DNA from: an uncultured Streptomyces sp.
GTDB lineage: Bacteria > Actinomycetota > Actinomycetes > Streptomycetales > Streptomycetaceae
Direction of reading: 5' to 3'
DNA: 22,721 bases
Assembly: GCA_946480485.1 (NCBI GenBank)
Contig: CAMLJW010000025.1
Span: 1-22,721 of the forward strand
This document shows, one piece after another, positions 977 to 21,443 of this stretch (within the stretch, counting starts at the first letter, position 1; each line of letters starts with the position of its first letter). Both the position numbers and the translations under genes were made by a program. The notes under the pieces were generated by a model. The model was not told the origin of the DNA and made no database searches. It worked only from the letters and a program-made list of their open reading frames with translations.

Positions 977-1002
977 ATGCCGGTGATCTGACGCCGAGTT
1001 AG

Positions 1003-1075
1003 AGAAAGGTGCCGTTGACCTGTTAAGGATGCGATGGTGACGTCGTATCCGAGCAGAGATCAAGGGCACCTTTCT
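1003..1075. repeat. Long imperfect inverted repeat in front of a transposase fragment
   Basis: AGAAAGGTGCC (1003-1013) is perfectly complementary to GGCACCTTTCT (1065-1075). Pairing continues inward with TTGA and CT on the left against TCAA and AG on the right, with single mismatches, and again as GGAT-CGA near 1026-1033 against TCGTATCC at about 1043-1050. The whole 73 bases can therefore fold as one hairpin ending two bases before the GTG at 1077. It could be an IS terminal repeat pair, a small non-autonomous element, or a leader hairpin that limits read-in expression of the transposase. Confidence 0.55.
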
Positions 1076-1076
1076 G

Positions 1077-1304
1077 GTGAGCGAGCGTACAGGGTGGAGC
1101 CGTCGGCTGGTTGTGGCCGCCGAGGGGCAGGTCGGACATGCGGGTGTGGTGCTGCTGCACCAGGTCGCCGACCGGGTCGGGCTGACCGCGGCGCTTGCCG
1201 GGCTGTTCCCTGTGGGGGGAGCGCAACCTGGCGTGACCGCGCGCACCTGGTCGTGGCCTTGGCCAGCAGCATCGTGCTGGGGCCGGCGAACCCGTCGGAA
1301 TCGT
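1077..1304 (+). mobile_element. IS1380-family transposase fragment, frameshifted
   Basis: From the GTG at 1077, frame 3 reads SERTGWSRRLVV and then VGHAGVVLLHQVADRVGLTAAL. This is the N-terminal pattern of IS1380-type transposases (GHAGVVLLRKVADRxGLT). Near 1215-1235 the homologous sequence moves to frame 2, giving WRDRAHLVVALASSIVLGPAN, the next conserved block (WxRGxxLVxLAVAIVLGAxNLSE). Nothing after about 1304 resembles the rest of the roughly 450-residue enzyme, so only its first fifth or so remains and it cannot be active. It marks past transposition in the accessory segment. The family call rests on remembered consensus, not on a search. Confidence 0.6.
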
Positions 1305-1350
1305 GTAAAAGGGGGTCCGGTTGCAATAGCGCGCAATCGGGCGAGGCATG

Positions 1351-1369
1351 CGCCGGAGTCCACCTTCAC
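1351..1369. repeat. Left copy of a 19-base direct repeat flanking the hisS cassette
   Basis: CGCCGGAGTCCACCTTCAC occurs here and again, identically and in the same orientation, at 3742-3760. The two copies bracket the synthetase gene and its broken partner. Sequences outside the 19 bases differ on both sides. This copy lies at the 5' edge of the DUF397 remnant. Confidence 0.7.
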
Positions 1370-1374
1370 GCAAG

Positions 1375-1549
1375 TGGCAGAAGTCCAGGTGCAGCGAGGG
1401 TGGCGCCGACACCTGTGTAGCACTCGCCACCGACGGCGCGTCGCACCCACCTGTGTGAGAGTGACACCCCCGCGACCGTTATCGTCACCACGCCGGTGGC
1501 GCTGCGTGCTTTCCTCCGTGGCATCAAGGAGGCGGGGAAGAGCGGCTGA
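1375..1549 (+). pseudogene. Frameshifted DUF397-family gene remnant
   Basis: In frame 1 from 1375 the sequence reads WQKSRCSEGGADTCVALATDG, the classic start of the DUF397 domain (WxKSSxS...G.xCVEVA). It stops at a TGA after about 28 codons. In frame 2 the second half of the same domain appears as ESDTPATVIVTTPVALRAFL and then RGIKEAGKSG with a stop at 1547-1549. A single-base frameshift near 1440 separates the halves. DUF397 proteins are short (about 60-90 residues) and in actinomycetes usually lie downstream of an XRE-type helix-turn-helix regulator, which is not present here. The gene is therefore an orphan relic whose regulator was lost or lies elsewhere. Confidence 0.65.
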
Positions 1550-1627
1550 CCGGGCGCGGGCAAGGTGTGCTTGGTCTGCGGTGCCACGAGCCGCGTGGCG
1601 CAGAACGAGACACCCTCGCGCCGTGTT

Positions 1628-1657
1628 TTGCCCCGAGCCGATGGCTTCCGAGACTAT
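1628..1657 (+). promoter_or_regulatory. Possible promoter for a leaderless hisS transcript
   Basis: TTGCCC (1628-1633) and GACTAT (1652-1657) are 18 bases apart and resemble -35 and -10 boxes. The -10 box ends six bases before the ATG at 1664, so transcription would begin at or next to the start codon. No Shine-Dalgarno sequence precedes that ATG, which fits a leaderless mRNA. Confidence 0.35.
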
Positions 1658-1663
1658 GGCCGC

Positions 1664-2992
1664 ATGGCCTCCTTGAAGCAGTTCGACCCCGCGTCCGGGA
1701 CCCGCGATTTCCTCGCCGCCGAGTTCGAGCGGCGCGAACGCGCTTTCGCGGCCATCCGCACCGTGTTCGCCCGCTACGGCTTCCAGCCGCTCCAGACCCC
1801 GGCGTTTGAGCGGCTGGACGTGCTCACCGGCAAGTACGGGGACGAGGGCGACAAACTGATCTTCAAGATCCTTCGGCGCGGTGAGCACGAAGCCACCGGA
1901 GAGGCCGACCTTGCCCTTCGCTACGACCTCACTGTCCCTCTGGCCCGCGCGGCAGCGGCGTACGGCAGCCAGCTTCCGTCGCCGTACAAGCGGTACGCCA
2001 TCGCGCCGGTATGGCGGGCAGACCGGCCGGGCAGGGGACGGTTCCGCGAGTTCGTCCAGTGCGACCTGGACATCGTGGGCTCATCCTCGCCGCTGTCCGA
2101 CGCCGAGATTGTCCTGGCGCTGCATGACGCCCTTGAAGCGCTCGGCGTACCGGAGTTCCGTTTCCTGGTGAACTCCCGGCACGCTCTGTTCGGTCTGCTG
2201 GAGGCGTACGCCGTCCCGGAGGAGCTTGGTGCCGGTGCACTGATCACCTTGGACAAGCTCGACAAGCTCTCGCCGGAGGCTGTCGTAACCGAGCTGGTGG
2301 CCAGCCGTGGCCTGTCACCGGAGGTGGCACAGGGTTTGGTCGATGACCTCACCGCGCCCGATGCTGTTGAGCGGGTGAGGGGAGAGCTGAAGTCCAGTGA
2401 AACCGGTCAGGCTGGTTTGGCGGAGGTAGACCGACTGCTGGAACTCACCAAGGACGCGATCCCCGCCGAGCGCATCGCGTTCACGCCAAACCTCGTGCGC
2501 GGGCTCGACTACTACACCGGCATCATCTTCGAAGTAGTCGCCCCCGGCATGCCCGGATCGATCGCATCCGGTGGCCGCTACGACGGTCTCATCGGCCGCC
2601 TCGGGGGCAAGGACTCCCCCGCCTGCGGCGGCTCACTGGGCATCGAACGCATCCTGCCCCTGCTCTCACTGGCAGACGAAGTCACCTACTCACAGATTGA
2701 CGTGACCGTCACGGTCATGGGCGAGGATCAGGCCGCCGACACCTTCCGGCTTGCGGCCGAGATCCGCCGTGCCGGAGTCCGCACAGGTGTCTATCTCGGG
2801 TCGAGTGGGAAGTTCGCCAAGCAGATGAAATGGGCCAGCGACCAGGGAGCCCGTTTCTGCGTGATCTACGGTGCGAACGAACGCGAAGCCGGTACGGTCA
2901 CGCTGCGGGACATGGACAGTGGCGAACAGGTCCAGGTCCCGATCGATCAGGCTGCCGCAGAACTTGCACGGCGGTGCGCACCATCCAGTTGA
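1664..2992 (+). CDS. hisS: Histidine--tRNA ligase, divergent (archaeal/eukaryotic-like) type
   Basis: This 442-residue class II synthetase charges tRNA-His with histidine in the cytoplasm. Motif 1 lies near residues 38-49 (YGFQPLQTPAFE). Motif 2 is at about 111-133, with RADRPGRGRFREFVQCDLDI. The histidine-specific motif LVRGLDYYTG is at 277-286, and motif 3, GGSLGIERI, at 322-330. The C-terminal anticodon-binding domain starts near residue 346. The REFxQCDxDIxG form of motif 2 resembles archaeal and eukaryotic enzymes rather than the RxFxQ form of the usual bacterial HisRS, so this is probably a second, acquired copy (inference). The ATG at 1664 is preferred because homology begins there; in-frame GTGs at 1565 and 1595 are alternatives. 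The partner gene starts 47 bases downstream, suggesting cotranscription. Confidence 0.88.
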   Translation: MASLKQFDPASGTRDFLAAEFERRERAFAAIRTVFARYGFQPLQTPAFERLDVLTGKYGDEGDKLIFKILRRGEHEATGEADLALRYDLTVPLARAAAAYGSQLPSPYKRYAIAPVWRADRPGRGRFREFVQCDLDIVGSSSPLSDAEIVLALHDALEALGVPEFRFLVNSRHALFGLLEAYAVPEELGAGALITLDKLDKLSPEAVVTELVASRGLSPEVAQGLVDDLTAPDAVERVRGELKSSETGQAGLAEVDRLLELTKDAIPAERIAFTPNLVRGLDYYTGIIFEVVAPGMPGSIASGGRYDGLIGRLGGKDSPACGGSLGIERILPLLSLADEVTYSQIDVTVTVMGEDQAADTFRLAAEIRRAGVRTGVYLGSSGKFAKQMKWASDQGARFCVIYGANEREAGTVTLRDMDSGEQVQVPIDQAAAELARRCAPSS

Positions 2993-3039
2993 CGCGTAGC
3001 GGACCCATTCCGCTGCCGACTCGTTCCGAGGAGGAGCGG

Positions 3040-3651
3040 ATGGGAACGCAAGGCGATCGCATCTTCCAGATCACTGCCGAGCGGGGGTTTCCGGACCCCT
3101 GGCTCAGCTTCGGGGACTCCCTATGCGATGAGGCAGCCCTGAGCACGGAACTGACCCGTGCCATCAGCAAGGCCCGCAAGGAGCCCGCCGACGGGACGCG
3201 CGCAGAGGCGACCCGGGTCTTCCAGGCGAAGAAGGCGAACCTTCGCCGCTGCGCGGGCAACTTGGACCAGGTCCTGAGCGACTACGACGCGTCCGGCATG
3301 TGGGGTGTGCTGGACGAGCGAGCCGGCAGGCTCAACGTCGCGGATGTGCTGGAGACTTGGGGCCGCACCCAAGCGCTGCACCCGTTCCCCGTCGTGCTCA
3401 GAAGCCTTGAGTTCAACTGGGGCTACATGAAGGAGCACGGCGTCCGGGCGTTCTACGAGATGACGTGACGCTACGTCTCGCGGCTCCAGGAGAACACCGA
3501 GCGGTGGCATGAAGCCTGGAACGGCGAAGTCGCCACCGGCATGGTGGACCGCATCACGTCCATCGAATGCGATCTCGCCAGCATCGAAGCGCCGATGCAC
3601 TGCGACGTGTGCAAGAAGACGATCACGGCGCTGCTGTACCTCGACGAGTAG
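3040..3651 (+). pseudogene. Unrecognised partner gene of hisS, interrupted by an in-frame TGA
   Basis: An ATG at 3040 follows a strong AGGAGG (3029-3034). The reading frame runs 142 codons to a TGA at 3466-3468. The same frame then stays open for 60 more codons to TAG at 3649-3651, with the same G/C-rich third positions and plausible protein sequence (RYVSRLQENTERWHEAW...). The simplest reading is a Trp codon (TGG) mutated to TGA in a gene of about 203 residues; the 142-residue product may still be made. I do not recognise the family. Visible features are a Lys/Arg/Glu-rich, probably helical middle, several Trp residues, and a C-terminal CDVC pair that could bind metal. There is no signal peptide or membrane segment. 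The position directly after hisS suggests a function tied to it. Confidence 0.65.
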
Positions 3652-3677
3652 CCCGCGGTAACGCAGTCGGCATGGAG

Positions 3678-3734
3678 GAGGCCCCCGCTCCGGCACTCGA
3701 CCTGTCCAGGTTCGCCAGCCGGAACGGGGGCCTC
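3678..3734 (+). terminator. Hairpin terminator after the hisS cassette
   Basis: GAGGCCCCCG (3678-3687) pairs perfectly with CGGGGGCCTC (3725-3734). CCGG (near 3690-3693) and CCGG (3719-3722) can add an inner stem. It lies 27 bases after the TAG at 3651. The loop is long and there is no U-tract, as is common in Streptomyces. Confidence 0.65.
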
Positions 3735-3741
3735 TCTGTCC

Positions 3742-3760
3742 CGCCGGAGTCCACCTTCAC
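3742..3760. repeat. Right copy of the 19-base direct repeat
   Basis: This is identical to 1351-1369 (CGCCGGAGTCCACCTTCAC) and lies eight bases beyond the terminator hairpin. The distance between copies is 2391 bases. No gene remnant like the DUF397 fragment accompanies this copy. Confidence 0.7.
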
Positions 3761-3967: not shown

Positions 3968-5602
3968 ATGCGTGGAGCCACGCACGCCGGATGGACCGCG
4001 GGGGCGGCGGCGGTAGCCCTCGCGGCGACCGCATGCGCCGGGGCACAAGGCGGCGAGGGCAGTGGCGGTGGCGGCACGGGGATCGTGAGTTCCTCGTGGG
4101 GCGACCCGCAGAACCCGCTGGAGCCGGCCAACACGAACGAGGTGCAGGGCGGCAAGGTCCTCGACATGATCTTCCGCGGGCTGAAACGGTACGACGCCCG
4201 GACCGGCGAGGCCGAGGACATGCTCGCCCAGAAGATCGAGACCTCGGACTCGCGGAACTTCACCGTCACCGTCAAGGACGGCTGGACGTTCAGCAACGGA
4301 GAGGCCGTCAGCGCCAAGTCCTTCGTCGACGCCTGGAACTACGGCGCGAGCCTCAAGCACCACCAGCGGAACGCGTACTTTTTCGGATACATCGAGGGAT
4401 ACGACAAGGTCCACCCGGAGGGCGGCGGCAAGCAGAGCGCGGACACACTGTCCGGGCTGAAGGTCACCGGCGAGCGCACCTTCACCGTCAGGCTCAACCA
4501 GAAGTTCTCGAGCTTCCCCGACACCCTCGGGTACGCGGCCTTCTCGCCCCTGCCCAGGGCGTTCTTCGACAACCACGCGCTCTGGCTGAAGAAGCCGGTC
4601 GGCAACGGCCCGTACATCGTCGACTCGTACACCAAGGGCTCGCAGATGTCCCTGCGCAAGCGGGACGACTACCCCGGTGACGACAGGGCCGAGAACGACG
4701 GCGTGGACCTCAAGGTCTACACCGACAACAACACCGCCTACACCGACCTGATGGCGGGCAACCTGGACCTGGTCGACGACGTCCCGGCCTCCCAGCTCAA
4801 GAACGTCAGGAGCGATCTCGGCGACCGGTACATCAACCAGCCCGCCGGCATCATCCAGACCCTCGCCTTCCCGTTCTACGACAAGGCCTGGAAGAAGGAC
4901 GGCATGGCGAAGGTCCGCAAGGGGCTGTCCATGGCGATCGACCGTGAGCAGATCACCGAGACCCTCTTCCAGAAGACCCGGACCCCGGCCACCGACTGGA
5001 CCTCACCCGTCCTCGGCGAGGACGGCTACAGGACGGGGCTGTGCGGCGAGGCCTGCGAGTACAACGCCGCTGAGGCGAAGAGGCTGATCAAGGAGGGCGG
5101 CGGACTCCCCGGCGGGCAGATCAAGATCACCTACAACGCGGACACAGGCTCCCACCGGGAGTGGGTCGACGCCGTCTGCAACTCCATCAACAACGCGCTC
5201 GACAACGACAGGGCCTGTGCCGGGAATCCGATGGGTACGTTCGCCGACTACCGGAACCAGATCACGCGGTCCAAGTTGTCCGGCCCCTTCCGGGCCGGCT
5301 GGCAGATGGACTACCCGCTGATCCAGAACTTCCTGCAGCCGCTCTACTACACCAATGCCTCCTCCAACGACGGCAAGTGGTCGAACGCCGAGTTCGACCG
5401 GCTCGTCGACGAGGCCAACGCCGAGACCGACCCGGCCAAGGCGGTCAAGCTCTTCCAGCAGGCCGAGGAGGTCCTCAGGGACGACATGGGCGCCATTCCG
5501 CTCTGGTACCAGAACGGCAGCGCCGGCTACTCGGAAAGGCTCTCCGACGTGACGTTGAACCAGTTCAGCGTGCCCGTCTACCACCAGATCAAGGTCAACT
5601 GA
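3968..5602 (+). CDS. oppA: Oligopeptide ABC transporter substrate-binding lipoprotein (family 5)
   Basis: This 544-residue extracytoplasmic protein captures peptides and delivers them to the membrane permeases encoded next. The ATG at 3968 follows GAGGAGG (3955-3961) at six bases. The N-terminus is a lipoprotein signal with lipobox ATAC and the acylated Cys at position 23, followed by a Gly-rich linker. The mature part has the family 5 fold signature: NPLEPANTNE near the N-terminus, repeated lobes around MIFRGLKRYD and FTVTVKDGWTFSNGE, RKGLSMAIDREQI in the middle, and ADYRNQITRSK and DYPLIQNFLQPLYYT toward the end. Length fits OppA/DppA/BldKB-type proteins. It is the first gene of a five-gene operon. 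The substrate cannot be read from sequence; oligopeptides are the usual cargo. Confidence 0.9.
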   Translation: MRGATHAGWTAGAAAVALAATACAGAQGGEGSGGGGTGIVSSSWGDPQNPLEPANTNEVQGGKVLDMIFRGLKRYDARTGEAEDMLAQKIETSDSRNFTVTVKDGWTFSNGEAVSAKSFVDAWNYGASLKHHQRNAYFFGYIEGYDKVHPEGGGKQSADTLSGLKVTGERTFTVRLNQKFSSFPDTLGYAAFSPLPRAFFDNHALWLKKPVGNGPYIVDSYTKGSQMSLRKRDDYPGDDRAENDGVDLKVYTDNNTAYTDLMAGNLDLVDDVPASQLKNVRSDLGDRYINQPAGIIQTLAFPFYDKAWKKDGMAKVRKGLSMAIDREQITETLFQKTRTPATDWTSPVLGEDGYRTGLCGEACEYNAAEAKRLIKEGGGLPGGQIKITYNADTGSHREWVDAVCNSINNALDNDRACAGNPMGTFADYRNQITRSKLSGPFRAGWQMDYPLIQNFLQPLYYTNASSNDGKWSNAEFDRLVDEANAETDPAKAVKLFQQAEEVLRDDMGAIPLWYQNGSAGYSERLSDVTLNQFSVPVYHQIKVN

Positions 5603-7703: not shown

Positions 7704-8693
7704 GTGGCAGTGCTGCTCGAAGTGCGCGACCTGCACGTGGAGTTCAGGACCAGGGACGGCGTCGCCAAAGCCGTCAACGGGGTCACCTGCGGCGTCGACG
7801 CAGGTGAGACACTCGCCGTGCTCGGCGAGTCCGGCTCCGGCAAGTCCGTGACCGCGCAGGCCGTCATGGGGATCCTCGACATGCCGCCCGCGAGGATCAC
7901 CCGGGGCGAAATCCTGTTCCGGGGACAGGATCTGCTGAAGCTCAGAAAGGAGGAGCGGCGGCGGATCCGCGGCGCACAGATGGCGATGATCTTCCAGGAC
8001 GCGCTGTCGTCACTCAATCCCGTGCTCCCCGTGGGGGCCCAGCTCGCCGAGATGTTCACCGTCCACCGGGGGATGTCGAGGAAGGACGCGAAGGCGAAGG
8101 CCGTCGAGCTGATGGACCGGGTGCGGATCCCCGCCGCCCGTGCCCGTGCCCATGACTATCCGCACCAGTTCAGCGGCGGAATGCGCCAGCGCATCATGAT
8201 CGCCATGGCGATGGCCCTCGAACCCGCGCTGATCATTGCCGACGAGCCGACCACCGCCCTCGACGTCACCGTCCAGGCCCAGGTCATGGACCTGCTCGCC
8301 GAGTTGCGGCGTGAGCTCGGCATGGGGCTCATTCTCATCACCCACGACCTCGGCGTGGTCGCGGACGTCGCCGACAGGATCGCCGTGATGTACGCGGGCC
8401 GGATCATCGAGTCGGCGCCGGTCCACGACATCTACCAGGCCCCCGCTCACCCGTACACCAAAGGCCTGCTCGACTCCATCCCACGCCTTGACCAGAAGGG
8501 CCAGGAGCTGTACGCGATCAAGGGCCTGCCACCGAACCTGATGCACATCCCGCCGGGCTGCGCCTTCCACCCCCGCTGCCCCATGGCCCAGGACATCTGC
8601 CGAACCCTGGCGCCCCCACTGGCAGAGGTGGACGATGCGGACGCGGCCCGCGGGAGCGCCTGCTTCTTCTGGCGGGAGACGCTCGATGCCTGA
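7704..8693 (+). CDS. oppD: Peptide ABC transporter ATP-binding protein, OppD/DppD type
   Basis: This 329-residue cytoplasmic ATPase is one of two that power the importer. Walker A is GESGSGKS (41-48), the Q-loop [12 protein letters not shown] is near 95-106, the ABC signature FSGGMRQ is at 156-162, Walker B LIIADEP at 176-182, and the switch His at 214. The C-terminal region (about 250-329) has the Opp/Dpp-specific extension with [13 protein letters not shown] and a cysteine cluster ([15 protein letters not shown]...C), which in this family can ligate an iron-sulfur cluster. The GTG start at 7704 directly follows the oppC stop, with GAGG at 7697-7700; the GTG at 7710 is an alternative. The last eight bases overlap oppF. 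Confidence 0.93.
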
Positions 8694-9759
8694 GGCGATT
8701 CTCGAGGTCAGCGGCTTGGTCAAGCACTACCCCCTCACCCGCGGCATCCTCTTTCGCAAGCAGGTCGGCGCGGTCAGAGCCGTCGACGGTGTCGACTTCG
8801 CACTCGGGCAGGGCGAGACCCTCGGCATCGTCGGTGAGTCCGGCTGCGGCAAGTCGACGGTCGCCAGAATGCTGGTCAGCCTGGAGCGGCCGACGGCGGG
8901 CTCGATCACGTACAAGGGCGAGGACATCACCAAGCTCTCCGGTCGCGCCCTGAAAGCCGTACGCCGCAACATCCAGATGGTCTTCCAGGACCCGTATACC
9001 TCGCTCAACCCCCGTATGACCGTCGGCGACATCGTCCAAGAGCCGTACGAGATCCATCCCGAGGCCGCGCCGAAGGGCGACCGTCGCAAGAAGGTCCAGG
9101 ACCTGCTGGACGTGGTCGGACTCAACCCCGAGCACATCAACCGCTATCCGCACCAGTTCTCCGGCGGGCAGCGCCAACGCATCGGTATCGCACGGGGGTT
9201 GGCGCTGCGGCCCGAGATCATCGTTGCCGACGAGCCGGTCTCGGCCCTCGACGTCTCCGTACAGGCCCAGGTGATCAACCTGCTCGACCGGCTCCAGGAC
9301 GAGTTCAGCCTGGGGTATGTCTTCATCGCGCACGACCTGTCGATCGTGCGGCACATCTGCGACCGGGTCGGCGTGATGTACCTCGGGCGGATTGTGGAGA
9401 TCGGCAAGGACGCCGAGATCTACGACCACCCGACGCATCCCTATACACAGGCCCTGCTGTCCGCCGTGCCCGTCCCGGACCCTCGGGCACGGGAGCGCCG
9501 GGAGCGGATCATCCTCCACGGTGATGTGCCCTCACCTGCGAGCATCCCCTCCGGCTGCCGCTTCCGTACCCGCTGCTGGAAGGCCAGGGAGCGGTGCGCG
9601 CTCGAGGTGCCGCAGCTCGCGGTGCCCGCCGGTTTCCGGTACGACACCGGTCCCGCCGTGCACGACTCGGCATGCCACTTCGCGGAGGACGTATCCATGG
9701 GGCGCTGCGCGCCGGGGCAGGTCGTGCCGCCCGAGGAACCCCTGGGTAGCATGAAATAG
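8686..9759 (+). CDS. oppF: Peptide ABC transporter ATP-binding protein, OppF/DppF type
   Basis: This 357-residue second ATPase pairs with the preceding one. Walker A is GESGCGKS (50-57), Q-loop [18 protein letters not shown] near 97-114, signature FSGGQRQ (158-164), Walker B IIVADEP (178-184) and switch His at 216. [16 protein letters not shown] near 251-266 and the following [11 protein letters not shown] segment are typical of the Opp/Dpp ATPase C-terminus. The insertion [17 protein letters not shown] between the first two strands is normal for OppF. The ATG at 8686 lies in the oppD stop (ATGCCTGA overlap, the same octamer as at oppB/oppC). It is the last gene of the operon, and transcription should end at the hairpin at 9867-9901. 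Confidence 0.93.
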
Positions 9760-12594: not shown

Positions 12595-13569
12595 ATGACG
12601 GAACTGCCCTCGCCCAGCGTCCGGCCGCAGGGGCCCCCATCTCGCTTTGCTCGCCGTCTGCTGCTGGTGCACGCGCACCCGGACGACGAGGCGATCAACA
12701 ATGGCGCGACCATGGCCCGGTACGCGGCCGAGGGCGCCCATGTCACTCTGGTGACCTGCACGCTCGGCGAGCGGGGCGAGGTCATCCCGCCCGAGCTCGC
12801 GCATCTGACGGGCGGGGCCCTTGGCAGCCACCGCCTGGTGGAGCTCGGCACGGCGATGCGGGCGCTCGGCGTGCACGACTTCCGCTCCCTCGGCGGCTTT
12901 GGCCGGTACCAGGACTCCGGGATGAGGGGCGGACTCGAGAACGACGACCCGCGCTGCTTCTGGCAGGCGGACGTCGACGAGGCCGCCGCGGACCTCGTCC
13001 GGATCATCCGCGAGGTACGCCCGCAGGTACTGGTCACCTACGACCCCGACGGTGGTTACGGCCACCTGGACCACATCCAGGCCCACCGGGTCGCGATGCG
13101 CGCCGCCGACCTGGCCGCGCAGCCGGACTTCCGCCCGGAGCTCGGCGCACCGTGGACGATCACGAAGATCTACTGGAACCGCGTGCCGCGCTCCGTGGCC
13201 GAGGAAGCCTTCGCGCGTCTGAAGGACGACCTGGCCGAGCTGCCGTTCCCCGCCTCCGCAGCCGTCGACGACGTACCGGGTGTGGTGGACGACTCCGTGA
13301 TCACCACGGAGATCGACGGCACGGCGTTCGCAGCCGCGAAGGCAGCCGCGATGCGGGCGCACGCCACGCAGATCGAGGTCGCCGAGCCGTGGTTCGCGCT
13401 CTCCGACCAGCTCGCCCAGCCACTGTTCGTCGTGGAGTACTACGAGTTGGTGCGTGACCAGAGGGCTGGGGCGCCGAGGGCGGGAGCACGTACCGGGGAG
13501 GGTGGTGAGACGCAGGCCGGGGTGCGTGCCGGTGTGCGTGAGACCGACCTGTTCGCGGGGATTTCTTGA
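12595..13569 (+). CDS. mshB: N-acetyl-1-D-myo-inositol-2-amino-2-deoxy-alpha-D-glucopyranoside deacetylase (mycothiol biosynthesis)
   Basis: This 324-residue zinc enzyme of the LmbE/PIG-L family removes the acetyl group from GlcNAc-inositol to give GlcN-inositol, the second stage of mycothiol synthesis in the cytoplasm. The motif AHPDDE (27-32) supplies His28 and Asp31 as zinc ligands and Asp30 as probable general base. [12 protein letters not shown] (149-160) supplies His160 as the third ligand, with His157 and Tyr155 matching active-site residues of the mycobacterial enzyme. The CTLGERGEV and [12 protein letters not shown] segments separate MshB from the conjugate amidase Mca. The final 40 or so residues are a Gly/Ala/Arg-rich tail. 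No Shine-Dalgarno precedes the ATG, fitting a leaderless mRNA. The DUF6113 gene follows after 12 bases. Confidence 0.9.
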
Positions 13570-14261: not shown

Positions 14262-16514
14262 TTGAGTCGTGAAACTGACAGTTCGTCCTCCGGGCCCAAG
14301 GGGCGCGGCGGAGCCGCATACCCGTCGGGTACGCCGCCGTACGGGACCCCCACGGGTTCCGAGGGCGGCGCCGATGCTGGGCGTTCCGCCGGTGACCGGC
14401 CGGAGGAGCGTAAGACCGAGACCAGACTGACGACGCGGGTCCGGATCAACATCCCTGGGTCGAGGCCCATTCCACCGGTCGTCGTGCGCACGCCCGTCGC
14501 GGACGCCGAGGGATCCGACAACGGTACGAACGGGTCGGGGTCGGCCGCCGCGGAGCCCCCGCCGACTGCCTCCTCGAGCGCGCCCGGGTCCGCGGAACAC
14601 GCCCCCGCTTCCTCCTCCGGACCCGCCGCTCCCGCAGAGGAGAAGGCGAGTGACTGGTTCGTGCCCCGCAAGTCGGGTGCGCCCCATGGCGGTCCGGGTG
14701 GTGGCGGCATCAACGGCGCGCAAGCCGCCGGGACGCCCGGCGGCTTGGGCGCCCACGGCTCGGGACCGGGTACCCCTGCGGGAGTTGACGCGGGCACACC
14801 GAGCGGTCCCGGCGTGACCGGTACCGGTGGCGCGCGGCCCGGCGGTTCGGGTGCCGGTGGGCGGCTGCCCACCGTTCCGGGTCCTCGGCCCGGCGGCGCG
14901 AACGGCCCGACCGGTGCCGGGCTGCCCGGCGCGGGCGGCACCACCCCCGTGGCGCCGGGGCACGGCGGCGGTACCGGGTCCTTCGACGTGTCCAGTGCGC
15001 TGGCGGCGGGGCCGCTGGGCCATGGCAGCGGGGCGCACCCGACGAGAGCGAACGGCGCGGGTGACGGCGACGAGGCGTCACGGCGCCATGACCCGCCGTA
15101 CTTCTCCGACTTCTCCGACATCCCCGAGAACGGCGGGGTCGGGCTGGCGGGCCCGACCGGCGGACCGGTCACCGGAGACGGGCCGCTGGCGCCGCACGCC
15201 GGTGCCGGAGGCCCGGGCGGGCCGGGCGGGCCGGGCGGGCCGGGCGGCCTAATGGACCCCAACGGTTATGGCGGTCCCGGTGGCCCCGGTGCTCCGGGCG
15301 GTGGCCCCGGCCGACCCGGTGGCGGTCTGAGTGACGACACCGCGATCCTCACCCCGCAGAAGCCCGCCCCCGAACCGCCCGGCTTTGCCGTCGGCATCGG
15401 CGAGAACTTCGCCGGGGACACCCTGACCAGCCACCTCCCCGACGTACCGCCCCCCCCGAACTCGCCGTTCGGGCCGGGCGTGCACGTCGACGGCCCGCTG
15501 CCGCACCAGCCCCCGAAGCTGCCCGAGCCGGTCTCGCCTGCCGCACCCGCCGCCGCCAAGCCGAAGAAGAAGGGGCGCAGCAAGCTGATGCTTTTGGGCA
15601 TCGGCATGGTGGTCCTCGGCGGTGGCGTCTACGGCGCCGGGCTGCTGATGAACCACTCCGACGTGCCCAAGGGCACCACCGTGCTCGGCGTCGACATCGG
15701 CGGCGGCACTCGCGACGAGGCGGTCAAGAAGCTCGACGAGGCCTTCGGGAAGAGCACGGACCAGGCGCTGAAGCTGACGGTGGGCGGCGAAACGGTGTCG
15801 CTACAGCCGGACCGGGCGGGCCTCCAGTTCGACAGCCAGGCCACGGTCCGCGCCGCGGCGGGCAGCGACTACAACCCCGTGTCCGTGGTGGGTTCGCTGT
15901 TCGGCAACGAGCGCATAGTCGCCCCGGTGATGCCCGTCGACGAGGAGAAGCTGCGGGCAGCCCTGGAGCGCGAGGCCGGCGGCTCCGGCTCGGCGACCGA
16001 CGGCACGATCAACTTCGAGTCGGGCAAGGCCGTCGCCGTGTACGGCAAGGCGGGCGAGGGCATCGACGTCAACCGGTCGGCCGAGGCCGTCGAGGCGGCG
16101 TACCGCACACAGGTGGAGACCGGGAGGAGCGACCCCGTGAAGGTCTCCACCACGACGAGGGAGCCCACGATCTCGAAGGCCGAGGTCGACCGCAAGATGA
16201 AGGCGTTCGCGGAGCCGGCGATGTCGGGCATCGTCACCGTCAGGGCCGGTACCGCCGAGATCGCGTTCAGCCCGGAGAAATCGATCTACAAGTTCCTGAC
16301 CGTTCGCGCGGTCGAGGGCAAGCTGGTCGAGCACTACAACCTCGACGTGCTCAAGGAACTGTACGGTGACACCTTCGACGGCGTCTTGATCACAAAGGGA
16401 AACGGCAGTAAGAAGCCGGTGAGTCCGGAGGAAGTCGCATCTGCGGTGGGTCGGGCCTTGCGCGGCAGCACGCCCGCGGAACGAATCGTCACCATTCCGA
16501 CAGACCCGAGCTGA
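14262..16514 (+). CDS. Membrane-anchored protein with putative peptidoglycan-binding (PG_binding_4/VanW-associated) domain
   Basis: This 750-residue protein starts at a TTG at 14262, six bases after GGGAGAAG. Residues 1-435 are a low-complexity, mostly Gly/Pro/Ala/Ser-rich region predicted to be disordered and cytoplasmic, with a collagen-like PGG run (encoded at about 15214-15250). A basic patch (KPKKKGRSK, near 430-439) precedes a single membrane helix at about 440-460. The external part opens with VPKGTTVLGVDIGGGTRDEAVKKL near 467, the recognisable start of the PG_binding_4 domain found before L,D-transpeptidase and VanW modules. A second copy-like segment (VAVYGKAGEGIDVNRSAEAVEAAY) lies near 600. 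No catalytic domain follows. It probably tethers the membrane to, or senses, the cell wall. Confidence 0.8.
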   Translation: MSRETDSSSSGPKGRGGAAYPSGTPPYGTPTGSEGGADAGRSAGDRPEERKTETRLTTRVRINIPGSRPIPPVVVRTPVADAEGSDNGTNGSGSAAAEPPPTASSSAPGSAEHAPASSSGPAAPAEEKASDWFVPRKSGAPHGGPGGGGINGAQAAGTPGGLGAHGSGPGTPAGVDAGTPSGPGVTGTGGARPGGSGAGGRLPTVPGPRPGGANGPTGAGLPGAGGTTPVAPGHGGGTGSFDVSSALAAGPLGHGSGAHPTRANGAGDGDEASRRHDPPYFSDFSDIPENGGVGLAGPTGGPVTGDGPLAPHAGAGGPGGPGGPGGPGGLMDPNGYGGPGGPGAPGGGPGRPGGGLSDDTAILTPQKPAPEPPGFAVGIGENFAGDTLTSHLPDVPPPPNSPFGPGVHVDGPLPHQPPKLPEPVSPAAPAAAKPKKKGRSKLMLLGIGMVVLGGGVYGAGLLMNHSDVPKGTTVLGVDIGGGTRDEAVKKLDEAFGKSTDQALKLTVGGETVSLQPDRAGLQFDSQATVRAAAGSDYNPVSVVGSLFGNERIVAPVMPVDEEKLRAALEREAGGSGSATDGTINFESGKAVAVYGKAGEGIDVNRSAEAVEAAYRTQVETGRSDPVKVSTTTREPTISKAEVDRKMKAFAEPAMSGIVTVRAGTAEIAFSPEKSIYKFLTVRAVEGKLVEHYNLDVLKELYGDTFDGVLITKGNGSKKPVSPEEVASAVGRALRGSTPAERIVTIPTDPS

Positions 16515-20933: not shown

Positions 20934-21443
20934 TCAGCCGACCGGCAGGTCGCCCTTCAGCGGCAGCTGCTCCGCCGGCAGGGAGCCGCCCTGGGTGAGG
21001 CTGTCGGTCGGCAGGCCTCCGCCCGTCGACTTCGCGGTGTCGCCGACCACGTCACCCGCGGACCCGGCGACCCTCTGCGTGGTGGGCGTCGCGCCCTGGA
21101 CGGCCTTCCCGCCTGCCCTGGCCACGGACGGCACGGTCTTGTCGACCGTCTTGGTGGTCGCCTTGGTGGCTGTCTTGGTGGTCGCCTTGGTGTCCGCGTC
21201 GCCCGCGAGCCGGGAGACGTGCTGCGTGGCGCCGTCGACAGTGGCGCCGTCGACAGTGGTGCCGTTGACGGTGGTGCCGTCGACGGCGGTGCCCGCGTCG
21301 TCCAGCGTGGTCAGCCCGCCGAGGTCGGAGGTGGCCGGCAGTTCGGCCGCGCCGGCGGAGCCGGCCGCACCGACCACGGGCGCCGCTCCCGCTGCGACGA
21401 GCAGCGCGGCACGGGCGATCCGACGGGTCAGGGGGAGGGACAT
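20934..21443 (-). CDS. Exported repeat-rich small protein
   Basis: This 169-residue protein starts at an ATG at 21443 with AAGGAG a few bases upstream. MSLPLTRRIARAALLVAAGAAP...AGAA is a clear Sec-type signal peptide with cleavage near residue 32. The mature chain is low-complexity: a run of five-residue units of the type VDGTT/VDGAT at about 48-72, then ATTK/TATK-type four-residue units, then Gly/Ser/Thr-rich sequence ending in LPLKGDLPVG. No enzyme fold is visible. Similar genes between dapC and dapE in Streptomyces are often labelled 'ATP-binding protein'; no nucleotide-binding motif (Walker A) is present here, so that label is not supported. A wall-associated or secreted structural role is possible. 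Confidence 0.8.
   Translation of the reverse strand: MSLPLTRRIARAALLVAAGAAPVVGAAGSAGAAELPATSDLGGLTTLDDAGTAVDGTTVNGTTVDGATVDGATQHVSRLAGDADTKATTKTATKATTKTVDKTVPSVARAGGKAVQGATPTTQRVAGSAGDVVGDTAKSTGGGLPTDSLTQGGSLPAEQLPLKGDLPVG
21149..21300. repeat. Two in-gene tandem repeat arrays
   Basis: Four 12-base units (21149-21196, CTTGGTGGTCGC type) encode the Lys/Ala/Thr repeats. Five 15-base units (21226-21300, GTGGCGCCGTCGACA type; the first two are identical) encode the VDGA/VDGT repeats. Unit lengths are multiples of three, so copy number can change without breaking the exported protein. Confidence 0.75.

Follow-up and report, generated by a model that had tools for sequence, protein, structure and literature searches.

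A probably mobile two-gene unit encoding an accessory histidyl-tRNA synthetase beside the opp operon of an uncultured Streptomyces

Extra aminoacyl-tRNA synthetases are common and mostly uncharacterised according to excerpts of a review (PMC9437257), in whose table the row for histidyl-tRNA synthetase (HisRS) gives no auxiliary HisRS function, only HisZ. In Streptomyces coelicolor, fourteen XRE-DUF397 gene pairs acted as regulators, not as toxin–antitoxin pairs, as reported in excerpts of one study (PMC10364602), where the terms "hisS" and "histidyl" do not occur. Here we describe an accessory HisRS gene, hisS2, and a partner gene, which together form a unit next to a DUF397 gene in a 22,721-nucleotide stretch from an uncultured Streptomyces sp. 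(GCA_946480485.1, contig CAMLJW010000025.1, positions 1 to 22,721), hereafter the window. A literature survey of titles, abstract openings and term counts, with most subscription journals outside it, returned no report of such a HisRS module.

A preliminary description of the window had proposed an inserted or excisable two-gene hisS cassette, bracketed by a perfect 19-nt direct repeat (the 19-mer) and possibly serving resistance or defence. Our comparisons support a discrete and, by its distribution, horizontally mobile two-gene cassette at this place: homology to other copies ends at the unit edges, hisS2 occurs in only 7 of 295 Streptomyces genomes, and the opp neighbourhood exists elsewhere without the cassette. 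Taken as a whole, the best explanation, which we hold to be fairly probable, is that a mobile accessory hisS2–partner unit was inserted here and left the 19-mer as a scar, with hisS2 in a protecting and the partner in a dependent role.

The two-gene unit and its proteins

The window carries a self-contained unit at about 1590–3741, made up of a promoter-like block, an intact hisS2, a partner gene with an in-frame stop, and a terminator-like hairpin. Its features are as follows:

1589..3744, + strand: largest extent of DNA homology with cassettes elsewhere (L026), from DNA comparison
1626..1657, + strand: promoter-like block of the cassette (TTTTGC at 1626–1631, GACTAT at 1652–1657)
1664..2992, + strand: hisS2, accessory histidyl-tRNA synthetase, 442 aa, intact, eukaryote/cyanobacteria-like by profiles and alignment
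3040..3651, + strand: partner gene of a 203-aa family, with an in-frame TGA at codon 143 (3466–3468), from the family alignment
3684..3728, + strand: terminator-like hairpin closing the unit, from folding energy

A search of genomes with the partner family (27-member alignment A1) gave 36 loci, L001–L036. When window DNA was compared with such loci (matches at E ≤1e-8), the seven closest (L005–L009, L012 and L026) were 87–93% identical and matched only from 1589–1623 to 3735–3744. The flanking DNA of the window was common to none of these seven, and several loci shared flanks among themselves. Most remaining loci matched over both genes with little more; L015 additionally matched in the opp ATPase genes (7953–9399), which we took as paralogues.

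The promoter-like block was compared between the window and 16 Streptomyces-type loci, with the Actinomadura copies outside this set. TTTTGC was exact in 16 of the 17 and GACTAT in 11, and the latter block ended 6–8 nt before the hisS2 start codon; with a start at 1664, this spacing would give a leaderless transcript if the block acts as a promoter. The hairpin region (3684–3741) folded at −25.6 kcal/mol (z −1.8), with 12 of 200 shuffles equally stable. Between 1351 and 3760 we saw no transposase or recombinase gene among the genes there (DUF397, hisS2 and the partner), the other open frames, which overlap these three, not being searched individually; the stretch does not have the make-up of an insertion sequence or transposon, with its own transposase or recombinase within repeated ends. 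A dedicated tRNA-His beside the unit was rejected, as none adjoined it in the window or in the 31 loci given (of 37).

hisS2 is predicted to encode a HisRS with conserved HisRS motifs that is deeply divergent from the housekeeping enzyme. It scored above the curated HisRS cut-off (TIGR00442, 357 versus 287 bits) and matched both the class II core and the anticodon-binding domain (PF13393 and PF03129). The RGLDYYTG and GGRY motifs, which we take to be conserved HisRS motifs, were retained in the alignment to 6nhi. The nearest solved relatives by sequence were 6nhi, 3net and entries named cytoplasmic histidine--tRNA ligase, with 4g84 also among the best; 3net is a cyanobacterial HisRS. Assignment as HisZ, the regulatory subunit of ATP phosphoribosyltransferase, was rejected, with 188 versus 272 bits for TIGR00443 and scores under the respective cut-offs for other HisZ models too. 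Of the genomes behind the 36 loci, 21 were searched, and every one of them also had a housekeeping HisRS, so that in each the cassette supplies a divergent second copy, as in the IleRS2 type; five of these enzymes matched hisS2 in one piece at 32–35% identity, and the remainder in two pieces at 26–40%. A 68% identical HisRS (P0204) is labelled Mycobacterium tuberculosis in one source, perhaps, as a guess, from a mislabelled assembly.

The partner family comprised 96 proteins among 225 candidates, all named ones being actinobacterial, and had no match in Pfam at E 0.001, NCBIfam or PADLOC. The partner was modelled as a helical bundle (predicted local distance difference test, pLDDT, 86.5) that gave no clear match to a known fold, heme-oxygenase-like and other folds being neither shown nor excluded. 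The conserved C-terminal EAPMHCDxC motif of the family falls beyond the stop at codon 143 in the window. Both genes are under purifying selection: the ratio of nonsynonymous to synonymous substitution (dN/dS) to six close relatives was 0.07–0.11 for hisS2, 0.08–0.15 for partner codons 1–142 and 0.04–0.15 for the part after the stop. The partner being as conserved after the stop as before it, the stop is either recent or a sequence error.

Distribution and mobile contexts

Full-length hisS2 lay just upstream of the partner in 31 of the 36 loci found through the partner; it was fragmentary in two (L029 and L032) and absent from three (L018, L028 and L034). The seven hisS2-bearing Streptomyces genomes, one of them with a broken copy, include G008, the centre genome, which had been selected because it carries hisS2. 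A search with hisS2 only showed an adjoining partner match in six of seven genomes; three of the six were known before, and among the new ones L140 was frame-shifted.

Integrity was counted over 42 copies (the 36 loci, L086, the window and L140–L143), 36 of which had been found by the partner search. Both genes were intact in 29 copies, with L027 counted at 97% and 93% coverage. Seven copies combined an intact hisS2 with a broken partner (window, L030, L031, L033, L035, L036 and L140), six had both genes broken or absent (L018, L028, L029, L032 at a contig end, L034 and L143), and none had an intact partner without an intact hisS2. The broken partners end at different places, although five are from Actinomadura and are not proven independent; L140 is broken by a frame shift close to its start, and leaving this copy aside makes the asymmetry 6 to 0. 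The 7-to-0 asymmetry points to a partner that depends on hisS2, in the way that effectors depend on an antidote or subunits on their enzyme. A toxin would not be kept without its antitoxin, and the counts (0/42 versus 7/42) agree with this, but they are also expected of a subunit needing its enzyme.

Across actinobacterial genomes the hisS2–partner pair has the features of a selected, mobile unit, scattered in distribution and carried, as judged from neighbouring genes, on prophages and an element resembling an actinomycete integrative and conjugative element (AICE). Flank comparison showed that L001–L004 share a phage context and that L005, L014 and L026 share an AICE-like one. Upstream of the unit, L003 has small and large terminase, portal, scaffold, decoration and major head genes, and beyond it genes resembling tail and lysis genes, judged by eye from the reading frames. 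Relatives of all the L003 head genes occur in L002, those of the large terminase and portal in L001, and those of the portal, scaffold, decoration and major head genes in L086, a contig from IMG/VR that carries the pair; L004 shares small neighbours only. Neither the 50,697 phage records nor the 72,556 plasmid records contained a match to the partner, and hisS matches were found in 22 phage records, all below 60% identity.

L005 contains RepSA (319 bits), GntR (64 bits) and excisionase-like genes, and two stretches of its tRNA-Ser (760–777 and 786–807) are found again past the unit, at 13159 and 13185, which places the unit between tRNA att-like repeats. These repeats on both sides, together with RepSA and GntR, therefore make the L005 unit appear to lie inside an AICE. 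L014 and L026 also have RepSA, FtsK-like and GntR relatives. A second integrase-like gene and an excisionase-like gene form a pair directly after the right tRNA-Ser repeat (L005 13159–14818), which suggests two tandem elements; the relative of this integrase-like gene inside the element had no Pfam match.

Several results weigh against this picture. In L005, FtsK_SpoIIIE (21.9 versus 24 bits) and the Phage_integrase match of the second integrase-like gene (22.8 versus 27.1 bits) fall below the Pfam cut-offs. Among the 105 pairings of 15 Streptomyces-type genomes, the similarity of hisS2 exceeded that of the housekeeping HisRS in 104, but a slower rate could explain part of the hisS2 similarity. 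Identities of hisS2 and of the housekeeping HisRS correlate (r 0.91 over 20 genomes; r 0.37, permutation p 0.02, within the 15), and since hisS2 distances follow the housekeeping ones, part of the history is vertical. The corresponding correlations between hisS2 and the partner were 0.92 over 20 genomes and 0.47 within 15.

Of 37 loci, 25 had an XRE-DUF5753 gene no more than 3 kb from the unit; counted in flank bins, the figures were 35/143 within 3 kb versus 1/245 farther out, with XRE seeds that came from the same loci. Beyond the XRE gene, a gene resembling a HATPase-type regulator, by eye, recurs in L001, L002, L003, L010, L014, L024 and L086. One copy of it matches a PHROG transcriptional regulator, and the arrangement recalls the whiJ/bldB/abaA kind of cluster.

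The insertion site and the origin of the 19-mer

The surroundings of the unit in the window are given by the following features:

1001..1299, + strand: broken IS1380-family transposase fragment left of the insertion, with similar DNA in plasmid records
1348..1549, + strand: frame-shifted DUF397 gene, probably resident in an XRE-DUF397-oppA locus, its four best relatives being opp-linked
1351..1369, + strand: left 19-mer copy, in the first codons of the DUF397 reading frame
3742..3760, + strand: right 19-mer copy, at the right edge of the unit as given by the exact repeat and the homology limits
3968..5602, + strand: oppA (SBP_bac_5), downstream of the insertion, with upstream homology to the best relative from 3839

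In G127, G247, G020 and G109, which have the best DUF397 relatives, the DUF397 gene comes after an XRE-DUF5753 gene and before oppA, directly in three genomes and at a distance of 1.4 kb in G109; neither hisS2 nor the partner was found at these four loci. As all four are opp-linked, the DUF397 gene was probably resident before the insertion, and as they are without hisS2, the unit would have entered between DUF397 and oppA. DNA matches to DUF397 were found in 5 of 246 genomes, namely the four opp-linked relatives and one unexplained 34-nt match. This stretch (window 1309–1342) adjoins the IS1380 fragment and is 97% identical to a place in G064 far from the hisS2 of that genome. Matches to the oppA stretch (E up to 0.001) came from 294 of the 295 Streptomyces genomes. 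Neither hisS2 nor the 19-mer was present in the 20 best oppA loci, and such a DUF397 gene was found in 1 of 20 wider oppA upstream regions. The XRE gene is missing from the DUF397-oppA locus of the window, where the IS1380 fragment takes its place; the IS1380 label comes from 4 of 20 matches (H2, H9, H10 and H15) annotated as IS1380 family transposase, the others having no feature or annotation.

The 19-mer, CGCCGGAGTCCACCTTCAC, occurs exactly and in the same orientation at 1351–1369 and 3742–3760 on the + strand, with copies 2391 nt apart, in agreement with the preliminary description. The contents it listed between the copies were likewise found (a frame-shifted DUF397, an intact hisS, the partner and a terminator-like hairpin), but it had missed the in-frame TGA at codon 143 of the partner and the membership of DUF397 in the resident opp locus. 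No third site was found in the window at up to 3 mismatches, where shuffles gave a mean of 0.02 sites each. Among exact direct repeats in the window, only a 21-nt tandem at 21148 is longer than the 19-mer. Half of the 36 related loci (18, each of up to 20.6 kb) also have exact direct repeats of at least 19 nt within 3 kb, and the length alone is therefore not decisive. The 19-mer was absent from all 295 Streptomyces genomes, which rules out a common dispersed repeat, an outcome that the preliminary description had named as fatal to its proposal. A terminus common to other copies was also ruled out (0 of 56 loci at up to 2 mismatches; L029 alone has a 3-mismatch site).

Other copies are bracketed by longer direct repeats: 54 nt in L023, 74 nt at 93% in L010, 203 nt at 93% in L035 and 262 nt at 99.6% in L007. 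All four fall within host genes, which Pfam identifies as pirin for L007 and as DUF397 for L010; those of L023 and L035 are unnamed frames, judged by eye. In 6 of 6 relatives given (of 11 fetched) for the L007 empty site, the pirin gene is continuous with the DNA after the unit, and L007 is therefore a true insertion with duplication. Ahead of its displaced pirin copy lie more fragments of pirin, 39 and 16 nt long, which look like what deletions would have left of a longer duplication. Between its pirin repeats (L007 7937–12447), the insert contains in addition a gene with NAD-binding and DUF1932 domains, so an inserted piece can exceed the two-gene unit. For L023, the DNA of relatives matches beyond the right repeat only, the left gene lying outside their flanks (11 loci given), and insertion is not proven. 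In a control, bracketing repeats of at least 17 nt occurred in 3 of 30 copies versus 4 of 1456 shifted positions; at 15, 17 and 19 nt the counts were 3, 3 and 2 copies versus 8, 4 and 3 positions, where shifted positions overlap one another and the thresholds were chosen after the data were seen. The control covered copies other than the window with a matched span of at least 1500 nt, which sets L035 and its 203-nt repeat aside, and the repeat of L007 lies too far out to count.

On this analogy, the right 19-mer of the window is most likely the remnant of a duplicated DUF397 start, and the repeat looks like an insertion scar rather than the cassette's own end. The cassette as a discrete mobile insertion is upheld, while the preliminary reading of the 19-mers as its ends is not, the DUF397 between the copies being resident. 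Three points count against the scar. A site with a single 19-mer and no cassette, which had been predicted, was not found for the window; the long-duplication origin would follow L007 by analogy, with only 19 nt remaining here; and L012, one of the three repeat-bracketed copies of the control, has its 37-nt repeat in transposase-like frames.

Three other origins of the 19-mer were weighed. It may be filler for which the DUF397 start close by served as template when end joining repaired the insertion break, and this has an appreciable, if minor, chance of being right: the right copy sits at the right edge of the unit with the left copy about 240 nt from the insertion point, and the sequence occurs in none of the 295 genomes, but the longer repeats at other copies suggest a common process over a one-off repair. 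A plain target-site duplication, in which DUF397, hisS2 and the partner were inserted as one piece, would place a copy at each end of this block and would suit the start of DUF397 homology to the opp-linked relatives at 1367–1375, at or just after the left copy; we consider it quite unlikely, given that the four best DUF397 relatives are opp-linked, that the block shows no transposase or recombinase gene, and that the repeats bracketing other copies range between 54 and 262 nt. Chance is extremely improbable despite the repeats of similar length in half of the related loci (18/36), as direct repeats in 60 order-1 Markov shuffles of the window went up to 18 nt and never to 19, the right copy coincides with the unit edge, and no stretch longer than 14 nt was common to left and right flanks from different loci over 1332 permuted pairs.

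Elsewhere in the window, a 154-aa frame in the accessory left flank (430–894) looks secreted by eye and has no Pfam match. A tRNA-Leu (caa) called by ARAGORN at 14688–14779 is without Rfam support and probably false.

Possible function and relation to known systems

In the explanation we favour, the unit would have been inserted between the resident DUF397 and the opp operon, and the partner would have acquired its stop codon since. hisS2 may sustain the charging of tRNA-His under an attack on the housekeeping HisRS or on the substrate of that enzyme, escaping the attack because its active site differs, and the partner may work jointly with hisS2, being useless or harmful alone. A resistance or defence role, as raised in the preliminary description, is plausible. 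Against the favoured explanation stand the lack of an identified attacker or HisRS inhibitor, the lack of tRNA-His by the unit (window and 31 of 37 loci), and the finding of no PADLOC family for hisS2 or the partner, which gives the pair no place among known anti-phage defences.

Two other functions have to be set beside this one. The partner may be a toxin that blocks the housekeeping HisRS or tRNA-His, with an insensitive hisS2 giving immunity as a substitute target, and on mobile elements such a pair would act as an addiction or anti-phage module. The absence of intact partners without intact hisS2 (0/42, the reverse being 7/42 with lesions at different places) favours it, all the more as 36 of the 42 copies were found via the partner, which should favour intact partners, and so does the unit being cargo of mobile elements. 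On the other side, toxicity is predicted only, the modelled partner has no clear counterpart among known folds, Actinomadura supplies five of the seven broken partners, whose independence is not proven, and a sequence error could account for the frame shift of L140 near the start, as for the stop of the window; the toxin is on balance unlikely, though a serious contender. A role in biosynthesis, with His-tRNA or His-AMP as a building block, is very unlikely: duplicated synthetases are known to be so recruited, according to the review excerpts (PMC9437257), but the recurrent clustered neighbours here are phage, AICE-like and XRE-DUF397 genes, no search for biosynthetic genes having been run.

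As a system of just two genes, the hisS2–partner pair is compact and open to test. It may connect tRNA charging with the conflicts of bacteria, phages and conjugative elements, and it offers a lead to possibly recombinase-free movement of gene units in actinobacteria. To our knowledge, a mobile HisRS that has a partner of its own would be the first case of an auxiliary role for this enzyme. It is doubtful, though conceivable, that the pair represents a new kind of addiction or defence module, whose antidote is no binding antitoxin but a substitute for the poisoned target, in which the partner blocks the charging of host tRNA-His and hisS2, of foreign eukaryote-like type, stands in for the blocked enzyme, which is carried as a module by phages and AICE-like elements and which enters chromosomes with duplication of host sequence and without its own recombinase.

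Among known systems, the unit is like the IleRS2 (mupirocin) type in having a second, divergent synthetase beside the housekeeping one (excerpts of PMC7916415 and PMC9437257), but unlike it in that the synthetase is a HisRS with a conserved partner of no known family, that copies lie on prophages and an AICE-like element, and that no inhibitor is known. It resembles the ProRSx of Streptomyces as an extra synthetase in this genus, whereas ProRSx has its own unusual tRNA (PMC9437257, in part) and no tRNA-His was found near the hisS2 unit. Its best solved relatives by sequence are eukaryote/cyanobacteria-type HisRS (PDB 6nhi, 3net and 4g84), from which it differs in being an extra copy beside another HisRS. 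The XRE-DUF5753 genes that recurrently adjoin the unit recall the XRE-DUF397 pairs of Streptomyces. Under the toxin and antidote alternative only, the unit would be like HipBA and HipBST as a mobile module acting on tRNA charging; in those systems, as far as the excerpts describe them, a kinase toxin inactivates a synthetase, whereas here no kinase was seen and the would-be antidote is itself a synthetase.

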